From the NCBI RefSeq assembly GCF_006874645.1, contig NZ_CP030082.1, forward strand, positions 4,030,001 through 4,094,000: a DNA stretch of 64,000 bases. Reading direction: 5' to 3'. This document shows positions 18,516 to 24,716 of the stretch, piece after piece. Numbering within the stretch: position 1 is the stretch's first letter; each line of letters opens with the position of its first letter. The position numbers and the translations under genes were made by a program. A model generated the notes under the pieces. That model saw only the letters and a list, made by a program, of their open reading frames with translations. It was not told where the DNA came from and did not search any database. This stretch comes from Bdellovibrio sp. ZAP7. GTDB taxonomy: Bacteria > Bdellovibrionota > Bdellovibrionia > Bdellovibrionales > Bdellovibrionaceae.

Positions 18516-18544
18516 TTGACAAGATCCTAAGGGCGTCTTAGAAC
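18516..18544 (+). promoter_or_regulatory. Promoter of the protein-glutaminase-like gene
   Basis: A perfect -35 TTGACA (18516-18521), 17-base spacer, -10 TAGAAC (18539-18544), giving a start near 18551 and a short leader with GGGGA before ATG 18566. Confidence 0.55.
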
Positions 18545-18565
18545 CCAAAATGGGTGGGGATTTTC

Positions 18566-19339
18566 ATGAAATTAATCACAGGTCTGATTACAGCTTTAGT
18601 TATACTTGCTCCGAATGCCTATGCGGGATTGCCTGCTCATCGCCAAGCGAATGAATCCTTCCAAGATGCGAAATCTCGCAGCCGTGGAAATGTTTTATTT
18701 TCTGATCTTGATAGTGAATTTTCTGGTTCCGGTCCCGAGTCCTTGGCGAAACCCATGTCTCAACTAAAGCTAAACGAAATTCCGGCTCTTTCGTCGTATC
18801 AGGAGCTTGTCGCTCAGTTTTACTTCATTCGGGATTCTTATTTCGTGAAAGCCGGATACACTCCTCGTCGCTTGACTTGGCTTTTCCCTGATGACGGTTG
18901 CTATGCCCGTGCGGAACTGGCGGCAGAACATCTGATTATGAATCACGCTATCTCTCCTAAAAAGGTTTTCGCATTCGGAGAACTTCACGCAGCGACTAAC
19001 AACTCACCCAATGGTTGGGTGGAGTGGTGGTACCACGTTGCTGTTATCTATCGCGTGGATAACACAGCATACGTTCTAGATCCGGCGTTGAATCCTCACC
19101 AACCTTTAACTTTGTCTCAATGGGGCGAGGCGATCGGAGGAGACAAAACGGCGGTGAACTACTCAATCTGCTCTAAAGACGCCTTCGATCCAGACAGCGC
19201 CTGCATGCAGCCTCCTAAAATTGATGAGGACATGGCCGAGCAAGAACAGGAAGTCTTTCTTCCTGAAGAATGGAACCGAATTTTAGAATTAGGCCGCGAT
19301 CCAGAAAAAGAACTCGGCAACCAGCCACCTTGGCTGTAA
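18566..19339 (+). CDS. Secreted protein-glutaminase-like enzyme
   Basis: A 257-residue protein: Sec signal peptide MKLITGLITALVILAPNAYA, then a domain with Cys112 in DDGCYARAELAAEHL, His157 in WWYHVAVIYRV and Asp172 in YVLDPALNP. This Cys-His-Asp order, the DGCYARA motif and the intervening FAFGEL segment match Chryseobacterium protein-glutaminase, which deamidates glutamine side chains in intact proteins, and the protein-glutamine deamidase fold generally. If active it would turn surface Gln into Glu in host or prey proteins. Chryseobacterium protein-glutaminase is made with a pro-region; residues 21-90 here could serve as one. The start is ATG 18566 with GGGGA before it. It is monocistronic, with its own promoter and terminator. 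Confidence 0.75.
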   Translation: MKLITGLITALVILAPNAYAGLPAHRQANESFQDAKSRSRGNVLFSDLDSEFSGSGPESLAKPMSQLKLNEIPALSSYQELVAQFYFIRDSYFVKAGYTPRRLTWLFPDDGCYARAELAAEHLIMNHAISPKKVFAFGELHAATNNSPNGWVEWWYHVAVIYRVDNTAYVLDPALNPHQPLTLSQWGEAIGGDKTAVNYSICSKDAFDPDSACMQPPKIDEDMAEQEQEVFLPEEWNRILELGRDPEKELGNQPPWL

Positions 19340-19342
19340 CTT

Positions 19343-19371
19343 AAAAAGGCTCCTTCCGGGAGCCTTTTTTA
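19343..19371. terminator. Bidirectional intrinsic terminator
   Basis: Stem GGCTCC (19348-19353) with GGAGCC (19359-19364), A-tract before and a run of six T after. It serves the protein-glutaminase-like gene and may also end the convergent rlmH operon. Confidence 0.8.
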
Positions 19372-19413: not shown

Positions 19414-19884
19414 CTAGATATTGTGATACGGAATCTTTTTGATAATTGTAAAGGCGCGATAGATTTGCTCCAAGCTCATCGCTTGCGCCATTAAATGATT
19501 CATGACCATTGGGGAAAGTGCCACTTTCAAATCCGCACGCTTCCGAACCTCTTCGTTGACGCCGAAGGCTCCGCCGATAATAAATATCGCCCGTTTCTTA
19601 GAACTTCCCAGAATATTTTCGATTTTTTTTGAGAACTGAATTGAATCCAAAACCGATCCGCGCTCGTCAAAAAGTATGACGTAATCGTCGGAATTGATAT
19701 TTTTAAGAATGAGATCTGATTCTTCATTGCGCTTAAAGTCTGCATCTTCACGAGCAGACTTTTTAGCCTTCAGACTTTGAATATCAAAGGGAATGAAAAA
19801 GGAAATTTTCTTTTTGTACAACCCGCTGACCTCATCAGCCCACGCCTCTTTGGCGGTTGCGAGGTTGTACAAAATGAATTTCAT
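19414..19884 (-). CDS. rlmH: 23S rRNA (pseudouridine-1915-N3) methyltransferase
   Basis: A 156-residue SPOUT-class methyltransferase of normal length. The trefoil-knot SAM site is FIIGGAFGVNEEVRKRADL, and the C-terminus carries the diagnostic LEQIYRAFTIIKKIPYH. It methylates the pseudouridine in helix 69 of 23S rRNA in assembled ribosomes. Its ATG shares bases with the stop of the nadD-rsfS gene, so translation is coupled. The rsfS-rlmH pairing is a common bacterial arrangement and supports both calls. Confidence 0.95.
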   Translation of the reverse strand: MKFILYNLATAKEAWADEVSGLYKKKISFFIPFDIQSLKAKKSAREDADFKRNEESDLILKNINSDDYVILFDERGSVLDSIQFSKKIENILGSSKKRAIFIIGGAFGVNEEVRKRADLKVALSPMVMNHLMAQAMSLEQIYRAFTIIKKIPYHNI

Positions 19885-20909
19885 TACTGTTGCTTCCCAA
19901 CGTATGGATCTTTAAGAGGCAAAACTGTTCCTTGTCTCCACAAGTTTTCAAGACCGTATTCAAGGCGTACGAAATCATAGAATACGTGAATGATCAAAGT
20001 ACCGTAATCAACCAGAACCCAACGACCTTCATCAACACCCTCTACGGATTGTGGATGAACGTTGAACTCTTCTTTAACTGCGATCACGATGTTTTCTGCC
20101 ATAGCCGTCGCATGACGAGTGGAAGTACCGGATGCGATCAAAGCGAACTCGCTAGGAGCTGTGATCTTTCTTAGATCGTAACCAAGAACGTTAATACCTT
20201 TGTTCGCAAACAAAACATTAGCGCAGAACTCAGTGAACTTAGTGTAGTCACCGATACGATCGCCAAGGTTTCTGTAAAGTTTGTGTTCTTTGATGTAAGT
20301 CTCAACAGCAAGCGGCAAGTACTGCTCAACTGGCTTCCCAGAACGAAGCCATTTACGAACTTCACTGGAAGAGATTTCGATATCACGCAAAGTAATGAAC
20401 TGGATGCTACGACCTGTAGTTAGTTCGATGAAATTGAAATCGAAGTCAGCAACAAGTGGTTTCAAATAACCAGGCATTTCATCCAAAGACTCTGGCATGT
20501 CGTAACCTGGGCGAGTTGTCACAACCAAGTTCGTTTCAGCTAGAATTTTGGAATAGTCTTTCCACTGACTTAGTTCCTCAAACTTGTCAGCGCCCACGAT
20601 CAAATACAAATCAGATGCTTCGTATGTTTTGCGAAGATTCATGATTGTGTCGATTGTATAGCTCATGCCACCACGTTTTAGCTCTTGATCATCAACGAAG
20701 TAAGTTTCGCCGTATTGAGCGAAAGCAAGCTTTGTAAGTTCAAGGCGTTGCTCTGCGGAAGGACCTTCCACTGGAGTTTTAAGAGGATTTTGAGCTGCAG
20801 GAATCACGTGGACTTTGTTCAAGCCCATTTTCTTTGCCACTGTTTGAATGGCGTTGATGTGACCCATATGAGGAGGATTAAAGCTTCCGCCAAAGATACC
20901 AATTTTCAT
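19884..20909 (-). CDS. nadD-rsfS: NadD-RsfS fusion: nicotinate-nucleotide adenylyltransferase and ribosomal silencing factor
   Basis: A 341-residue fusion. Residues 1-210 are NadD: FGGSFNPPHMGH nucleotidyltransferase motif at 6-17 and ISSSEVRKWLRSG near 180. Residues 218-335 are RsfS (RsfA/Iojap): KGINVLGYDLRKI, ALIASGTSTRHATAMAENI, GRWVLVDYGTLIIHVF. NadD makes deamido-NAD; RsfS binds L14 and blocks subunit joining in starvation. The two genes are usually adjacent but separate. I see no stop or frameshift between the domains. It is coupled to obg upstream and rlmH downstream by overlapping stop/start codons. Confidence 0.93.
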   Translation of the reverse strand: MKIGIFGGSFNPPHMGHINAIQTVAKKMGLNKVHVIPAAQNPLKTPVEGPSAEQRLELTKLAFAQYGETYFVDDQELKRGGMSYTIDTIMNLRKTYEASDLYLIVGADKFEELSQWKDYSKILAETNLVVTTRPGYDMPESLDEMPGYLKPLVADFDFNFIELTTGRSIQFITLRDIEISSSEVRKWLRSGKPVEQYLPLAVETYIKEHKLYRNLGDRIGDYTKFTEFCANVLFANKGINVLGYDLRKITAPSEFALIASGTSTRHATAMAENIVIAVKEEFNVHPQSVEGVDEGRWVLVDYGTLIIHVFYDFVRLEYGLENLWRQGTVLPLKDPYVGKQQ

Positions 20910-23105: not shown

Positions 23106-24716
23106 TTAGGGTCTTAGAAGTTCGCTCTTTAGCGCATCGCTCAATCGAAGCTGCGGATTATTCACAACGGCCTCAATCAATTTTCGGTGCGTCTGATAAT
23201 TTGATTGCGCAGCAACACTCGAAGGATTCTGGCTCGAAATAGTTCGAAGTTCCTGTTTTTCCCTCTTCAAAGCTTCGTAGATTGCCTCTGACTTAGAATT
23301 CCCGGTTTCTTTACTGTAGCTCTTTATAAAATAGTCCGCCGCTTTGTCGTATCTTTCGGCGTTCGCATTTATTTTTGCGCCCATCCAGTAGTCACGGTCC
23401 GACTTTGTAAGTTTTACATCATTCACCACAGTTTCGAAGGAATCCGCCGCCGATCGGAAGCTTTGTTTCGCTTCGTTGGTTTTGCCAGAGCTCAAGAGTT
23501 TCTCCGCCTGAAGGCGCATGGTGTTTGAATAAGTGCGAGCCGCCATACCACTTGATAGAGAGCCCGCAAGACCTTGGCGCAATAATAGCTCACGCTCGGT
23601 TTCGCTAAATCCTGCCGTCTTTAATATGTCTGCTTTGTTTTTTAGGTCGGTAGCTGAGTATGATCCGTAACCTCGCCCCGTCCCGGCTGCGACTTCATGG
23701 GCATCAATAAGTGCTTTCTGTTCTGCTGACGTCAGAGTTCGGCCCAAAGATTTTTCAGCGGCAGTGATGCGTTCTACATTAGAAAGCTTGGCTGCTTTTT
23801 CCAAATCCGCGGCTGTCGCCACGATACGCGCGCCCGAGGTGGCTTTTGTGGCGTCGATGGAAACTCCCGCGATCTTTGCGATGTTTTGCATTCTTGAGGC
23901 TTTCAAAGCCCACCCCGCAGGTCCAATGGCGACAGTGCCGACTTCAGCAATAGCTTCGCAAACCATGGCGGCTGCTTGTTGCGAGCTGTAGCATTCCAGT
24001 CGCACACCGACTTCTTTAAGTTTTGCTTTCGCCGCATCCAAAAGACTTGTTTGAGTTCCCGGAAGACGTCTTTGCCCCCACTCGACCACTTCTTTTTCAT
24101 CCGCTGTCAGACTGGTTTTTTGCAAAAGCATCTTGCGATTCAAAGCAAGACTTAGTTCGTCTGCCTTTTGTCCTTGTTGAAGCTTGATAGTGGCTTTTAC
24201 TTTGGCGCAGTTTGTTTTTGCCAGAACCGCGTCCGAGGGTTTTGCAATTTTCAAAAGCTTGGGGACGTTTTGATTGTATTGCTCGATCAGTTGCATTTTG
24301 CCATTCGGATCGGCGTCGCAAGTTTTATTAGCAGCGTTTTCCAGTTCGACGTCATCGACAAACTTGCCGACACTCTTTGCGCCATCAGCAACAGCAGTCC
24401 CCATACCGACAAAGGTGTCCTTCACAAAGTTCCAGCCACCGATGGCGCACCCGGAAGTGTAGCTCCAAGCACTGTACTCTTGGGCCAGAGAATTTCCGTC
24501 TGAGCAGTTCGGAGCTTTTTCCGCAGGGTTTTCCCCAGCAGCTTTCATTTTGCCGTAAAGATCTGTGCAGGCTTTTGATTTTACTATCTGCTCGCAGGAA
24601 TTCTTTGAAAGGTCATTCAGGGCATCAAACGCCGTGTTGGAAAATGTGCTGCAGACCTCGCCCCATGAGAGGAGCGGAAGAAGTAAAAATGTCAGCAGCA
24701 GCACCAGGTGTTTCAT
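23106..24716 (-). CDS. Large exported protein of unknown function with LGR-LT motif
   Basis: A 536-residue protein with a Sec signal peptide (MKHLVLLLTFLLLPLLSWG). The first 255 residues hold nine Cys (22, 41, 50, 71, 90, 133, 170, 242, 253), suggesting disulphides. A Gly/Ala-rich hydrophobic stretch at about 255-275 (AIAEVGTVAIGPAGWALKAS) could cross or insert in a membrane. Residues 314-380 contain ERITAAEKSLGRTLTSAEQ, KALIDAHEVAAG and AGFSETERELLLRQG. I recall this pattern from several secreted proteins of predatory deltaproteobacteria-type genomes, sometimes near toxin domains. The C-terminal third is helical and TPR-like. No catalytic motif is recognised. It is monocistronic. Confidence 0.6.
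   Translation of the reverse strand: MKHLVLLLTFLLLPLLSWGEVCSTFSNTAFDALNDLSKNSCEQIVKSKACTDLYGKMKAAGENPAEKAPNCSDGNSLAQEYSAWSYTSGCAIGGWNFVKDTFVGMGTAVADGAKSVGKFVDDVELENAANKTCDADPNGKMQLIEQYNQNVPKLLKIAKPSDAVLAKTNCAKVKATIKLQQGQKADELSLALNRKMLLQKTSLTADEKEVVEWGQRRLPGTQTSLLDAAKAKLKEVGVRLECYSSQQAAAMVCEAIAEVGTVAIGPAGWALKASRMQNIAKIAGVSIDATKATSGARIVATAADLEKAAKLSNVERITAAEKSLGRTLTSAEQKALIDAHEVAAGTGRGYGSYSATDLKNKADILKTAGFSETERELLLRQGLAGSLSSGMAARTYSNTMRLQAEKLLSSGKTNEAKQSFRSAADSFETVVNDVKLTKSDRDYWMGAKINANAERYDKAADYFIKSYSKETGNSKSEAIYEALKREKQELRTISSQNPSSVAAQSNYQTHRKLIEAVVNNPQLRLSDALKSELLRP

Follow-up and report, generated by a model that had tools for sequence, protein, structure and literature searches.

A predicted exported enzyme of the protein-glutaminase family at a fixed single-gene locus in Bdellovibrio

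Introduction

What might a predatory bacterium do with a protein-glutaminase-family enzyme that it is predicted to export? The question is raised by a single gene of Bdellovibrio sp. ZAP7, found in a stretch of 64,000 nucleotides (contig NZ_CP030082.1, positions 4,030,001 to 4,094,000 of the forward strand) that we call the window. Protein-glutaminase acts on the side chains of protein-bound glutamine (PMC6132073). The papain-like superfamily is chemically diverse, related papain-like deamidases serve as pathogen effectors, and members of the Pfam family PF18626 have been reported near Dot/Icm genes (PMC10318531). An initial annotation of the locus had spoken of a secreted protein-glutaminase-like enzyme in a predator-type genome. 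The second half of that description fits the source genome, which belongs to the same genus as B. bacteriovorus HD100, Bdellovibrio sp. NC01 and B. bacteriovorus W. We have asked how far the first half can be taken, and whether the protein is better seen as a digestive enzyme, as an effector directed at the prey or as an enzyme of the predator's own envelope.

Results

The gene and its predicted exported product

The gene occupies positions 18566 to 19339 of the window on the forward strand and encodes an enzyme of the protein-glutaminase family (PF18626), predicted to be exported, as judged from the open reading frame and from comparisons with Pfam and the PDB. The frame runs from an ATG start to a TAA stop and gives a protein of 257 residues; an alternative in-frame GTG lies at 18554, four codons 5' of the ATG. 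A search of the whole source genome (4,123,562 bases, one contig) finds one clear copy of the gene. The N-terminus of the protein, MKLITGLITALVILAPNAYA followed by GLPAH, resembles a Sec signal peptide and has no lipobox. By direct reading the predicted signal peptide comprises residues 1-20 (18566 to 18625, forward strand), with predicted cleavage between AYA and G, and the aligned homologues have comparable hydrophobic N-termini that read as predicted signal peptides.

The next segment, residues 21-71 (18626 to 18778, forward strand), carries conserved residues at S/P23, R26 and E30, of which R26 is invariant and E30 nearly so among the aligned homologues; it is modelled with low confidence and may, from its sequence, be a short pro-region. 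It is followed by the catalytic domain, residues about 72-239 (18779 to 19282, forward strand), which aligns with mature protein-glutaminase in both structure alignment and hmmsearch. Within this domain lie the codons of the predicted nucleophile Cys112 (18899-18901, motif PDDGCYARA), the predicted catalytic His157 (19034-19036, motif WWYHVAV) and the predicted catalytic Asp172 (19079-19081, motif VLDPAL), all on the forward strand. The reading frame and the three motifs DDGCYARA, WWYHVAV and VLDPAL had been reported before, and we find each of them at the residues given for it; the Sec signal peptide of the same description is likewise predicted here. The C-terminal extension, residues 202-257 (19169 to 19336, forward strand), is marked by Cys202 and Cys213 and by a tail of the pattern LxRxPxxELGxxPPW.

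Assignment to the protein-glutaminase family

The protein matches the Pfam profile PF18626 (Gln_deamidase_2) with 98.2 bits and an E value of 4e-28, against a gathering cut-off of 25 bits, and the match places residues 85-189 on positions 5-105 of the 106 positions of the profile. In the PDB, single-sequence and profile searches return protein-glutaminases only (8z3i, 2zk9, 2ksv, 3a54 and 3a56), with E values from 1.6e-10 to 7.6e-9 in the sequence search. Cys112 aligns with the cysteine of DGCYARA in 2zk9, His157 with the histidine of WSYHVA and Asp172 with the aspartate of IIDPSL. The similarity to PF18626 and to the protein-glutaminases is far past chance. The NCBIfam model NF040782 (PG_glutam_Chrys), an equivalog of the Chryseobacterium enzyme, gives 51.1 bits and thus stays below its cut-off of 250 bits; we therefore place the protein in the PF18626 family, yet do not call it the equivalent of the Chryseobacterium enzyme. 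The family is already known and the domain is already recognised by Pfam; the assignment, solid as it is, is an ordinary one.

The predicted fold

An AlphaFold2 model of the 257-residue protein, built from an alignment of only 4 sequences, has a mean pLDDT of 68.5 and a pTM of 0.71. The core is for the most part modelled with confidence, and pLDDT falls below 50 at residues 1-31, 39-53, 104-108 and 252-257. Compared with the five protein-glutaminase structures, the model gives Z scores of 14.8-15.5 with an rmsd of 2.7-3.7 over 156-174 residues; in the case of 2zk9, residues 3-176 fall on residues 73-239 of the model (VIA-align 2, Z 15.2, rmsd 3.1, 157 aligned residues). The next family, that of human NTAQ1, follows at a Z of 7.6. 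A second model, made with the signal peptide removed in order to probe the pro-region, is of no better quality than the first and leaves the ranking unchanged (Z 12.2-13.5 against the protein-glutaminases, 8.0 against NTAQ1). Foldseek agrees. Comparisons by profile, by sequence with solved structures and by predicted fold all bear out the earlier description of a secreted, protein-glutaminase-like protein with a full triad. The protein is predicted to carry the protein-glutaminase fold, which is papain/transglutaminase-like, and alignment together with conservation predicts Cys112, His157 and Asp172 as the catalytic triad.

The closest structure is FBPG of Flavobacterium sp. 316 (8z3i), which is the top structural match (Z 15.5) and also the top sequence match in the PDB. 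Identity over the structural alignment is 20%, and the sequence match stops before the ELGxxPPW tail. With the protein-glutaminase of Chryseobacterium proteolyticum (2zk9, 2ksv, 3a54, 3a56) the ZAP7 protein shares PF18626, the motifs DGCYARA, W-YHVA and DP, and the predicted fold across the whole mature domain, and each of the two has a signal peptide, in the ZAP7 protein a predicted one. However, the two are only 24% identical in the aligned structure and fall into different lineages on a tree of the core domain. The segment in front of the domain is about 50 residues long in the ZAP7 protein, whereas the pro-region of the C. proteolyticum enzyme has 114 residues, and the ZAP7 protein has in addition the conserved C-terminal extension with its two cysteines and ELGxxPPW, for which the characterised protein-glutaminases show no match at sequence level. 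NTAQ1, an N-terminal glutamine amidohydrolase, is also a glutamine side-chain amidase; it has a related fold (Z 7-8) and about 12% identity to the ZAP7 protein.

Conservation and lineage

Conservation was assessed in an alignment of 31 homologues, two rows of which repeat others, with identities down to about 34%. C112, H157 and D172 are invariant, as are D109, D110, G111, R115, A116, N146, W154, W155, V158 and P173, so that the motifs DGC-x-RA, W-x-HV and DP around the triad are kept throughout. The extension, which lies outside the PF18626 match (85-189) and outside the PDB sequence matches, is also conserved: C202 and C213, both past the Pfam domain, are present in all 31 homologues, and the tail residues LxRxPxxELGxxPPW in 30, the one exception ending at a contig edge. 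The gene is under purifying selection. Against a 97%-identical homologue dN is 0.014 and dS 0.344, a ratio of 0.04; genes next to it give ratios from 0.01 to 0.10, a span that includes this value.

On the core-domain tree, which has about 100 columns and gives the relevant split a local support of only about 0.75, the subfamily stands apart from the group with the Chryseobacterium and Flavobacterium enzymes. That group also holds other PF18626-like proteins from the same phylum (loci L044, L046, L047 and L053). The placement suggests, as a lead, that the characterised enzymes are nearer to paralogues from the phylum than to the ZAP7 protein. The ZAP7 protein is a member of a phylum subfamily with a C-terminal extension of its own (paired cysteines, ELGxxPPW tail), possibly a distinct lineage. 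The PF18626-like proteins of the other group come from related genomes, are mostly secreted-looking and measure about 220-550 residues; some genomes of the phylum carry several PF18626-like copies. The source genome itself encodes a second secreted PF18626-like protein, 451 residues long and far more diverged (L032:1267-2622, reverse strand; genome position about 3796524), which has the motifs GFCFGRA, FHVA and IDPF and scores under the Pfam cut-off.

Distribution and locus

By whole-genome search, 22 of the 24 genomes of the genus, counting the source genome, carry the subfamily; beyond the genus its occurrence in the class and phylum, where it is seen in other families, is patchy. Both B. 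bacteriovorus HD100 (homologue at 3709596 to about 3710354, forward strand) and Bdellovibrio sp. NC01 carry the gene. The HD100 genome also shows a c-di-GMP-I riboswitch at the published position of merRNA. Of the two genus genomes that lack a full-length copy, G003 has a fragmented assembly and retains an N-terminal piece. The other is B. bacteriovorus W, where the end of comF and rlmH are 29 bases apart and no gene lies in the gap (L059:1468-1498). The absence from this predator indicates that the gene is dispensable for predation and speaks against a core role in it. In a sister genus, two genomes likewise have comF and rlmH as direct neighbours, and one of these (G025) has a homologue elsewhere.

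The order at the genus locus is fixed as rimO-lolA-comF-gene-rlmH-nadD. In 22 of 22 carriers the gene stands alone beside the divergent comF, and the convergent rlmH adjoins it in 21, which is wherever the compared stretch reaches that far; beyond comF lies lolA, and mostly also the start of rimO. Outside the genus the neighbours are different and unrelated. We found no operon or partner gene, the gene being solitary in the genus and its neighbours unrelated elsewhere. For an origin from phage or plasmid we found no phage match and a single plasmid match that is confined to the core domain. No secretion-system, toxin, immunity or effector gene lies near the locus, the neighbours being rimO, lolA, comF, rlmH and nadD.

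Promoter and terminator

Upstream of the gene lies a promoter-like block, TTGACA-N17-TAGAA (18516 to 18543, forward strand), that is conserved in the genus. Of 21 genus homologues, 20 have TTGACA (TTGACT in one case), a spacer of 17 nucleotides and then TAGAA, TAAAA or TAGTT, although the flanks of the block diverge. The gene had been credited with a consensus promoter of its own, and this holds in part: the -35 element is perfect and the block is conserved across the genus, but the -10 element TAGAAC matches TATAAT at only four of six positions and has no final T, and the block is absent from the results of a strict sigma-70 scan. As an exact string, TTGACA-N17-TAGAA has a single occurrence in the source genome and a single one in HD100, both times at this gene, and hence no promoter regulon can be defined from it. 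Attack-phase promoters carry the FliA motif TTAAG-N16-CCGATA (PMC3627812), from which the block differs; judged by its promoter sequence, the gene is therefore more likely to be expressed in the growth phase or constitutively than under FliA in the attack phase. The terminator named in the initial annotation is indeed predicted, as an intrinsic terminator with a 12-pair stem and a T-run (19343-19369, forward strand), and it is common to only a few close relatives.

Discussion

For the function of the ZAP7 protein we infer deamidase chemistry on protein glutamine, together with a site of action and a nutritional role. The explanation that we favour, and to which we would give an even chance, is that of an exported protein-glutamine deamidase that aids the processing of prey or periplasmic proteins as an accessory enzyme. 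A Cys-His-Asp enzyme of PF18626 with a papain/transglutaminase-like fold would be exported by Sec. Cys112, activated by His157 and Asp172, would attack the amide on the side chain of a glutamine within a protein or peptide, releasing ammonia and turning glutamine into glutamate. This could take place in the periplasm of the predator or, upon further export, in the digested prey. Denatured prey protein might thereby become more soluble and digestible, and the enzyme would be an accessory rather than an essential weapon of invasion.

The prey need not be involved at all. The enzyme could deamidate, trim or mature a periplasmic protein of Bdellovibrio itself, independently of predation, and the fixed housekeeping locus and the conserved non-FliA promoter across the genus would both suit such a role, as would the occurrence of the subfamily in further families of the phylum. 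However, a distribution that is patchy outside the genus, and a gene that was lost or never gained in W, would be unusual for envelope housekeeping, and outside the genus no conserved partner gene accompanies it. We consider this explanation unlikely.

It is also conceivable that the fold serves another chemistry, be it that of a cysteine peptidase, a transglutaminase or a small-peptide amidase. The chemical diversity of the superfamily (PMC10318531) allows for this, the model shows weaker fold similarity to NTAQ1, the LapG protease and transglutaminases, and the subfamily stands outside the clade of characterised enzymes with a C-terminal extension of its own. Yet protein-glutaminase is nearest on each measure, the next family being clearly more distant, and the motifs around all three triad residues are protein-glutaminase-like. 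A different chemistry thus appears improbable to us.

An effector delivered into the prey, where deamidation of a single specific protein or a small number of them would disable or reprogram the cell, is an equally poor prospect: Sec export in a predatory genus, the effector role of related papain-like deamidases and the PF18626 members near Dot/Icm genes (PMC10318531), and distant fold matches (Z 5-6) that include known or probable effector deamidases speak for it, but the locus has no effector or secretion genes, predator W does without the gene, the promoter is not of the FliA attack-phase type (PMC3627812), and the nearest fold matches are secreted protein-glutaminases and not effectors. 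The initial annotation had suggested such a reprogramming of prey proteins, a claim that the neighbourhood, the gap in W and the weakly supported position outside the characterised-enzyme clade all weigh against.

The accessory deamidase may be put more boldly, as a separate Bdellovibrionota lineage of secreted glutamine deamidases, set apart from the characterised enzymes of Bacteroidota type by the C-terminal extension, that deamidate prey proteins in bulk during predation; in this extended form we regard the proposal as rather doubtful. If true, bulk deamidation of the prey would join the proteolysis and peptidoglycan modification already known from bdelloplast digestion. With prey protein as the substrate, predation would gain a covalent modification step that is undescribed in the Bdellovibrio literature searched, and the subfamily would be a fresh source of protein-glutaminases, a class in commercial use in food. 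If only the predator's own envelope is the substrate, the gain would be a minor one for annotation. Among the open-licence papers that our search covered, none links Bdellovibrio with protein-glutaminase, and those Bdellovibrio papers that mention glutaminase or deamidase concern, to judge by title and abstract, other subjects; nor do the papers covered describe the subfamily, the C-terminal extension that marks it or the presence of such proteins in Bdellovibrio. The Bdellovibrio literature examined held no expression, proteome or mutant evidence for the gene.

Two other genes of the window may be recorded here. The reading frame at 19884-20909 (reverse strand) encodes a fusion of NadD and RsfS in one protein (PF01467 at residues 4-185, PF02410 at 228-323), a fusion shared across the genus and seen again in a sister genus. 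Further on, at 23106-24716 (reverse strand), a protein of 536 residues that has a signal peptide and matches no Pfam family is encoded between rplU and an RNase E/G-like gene.
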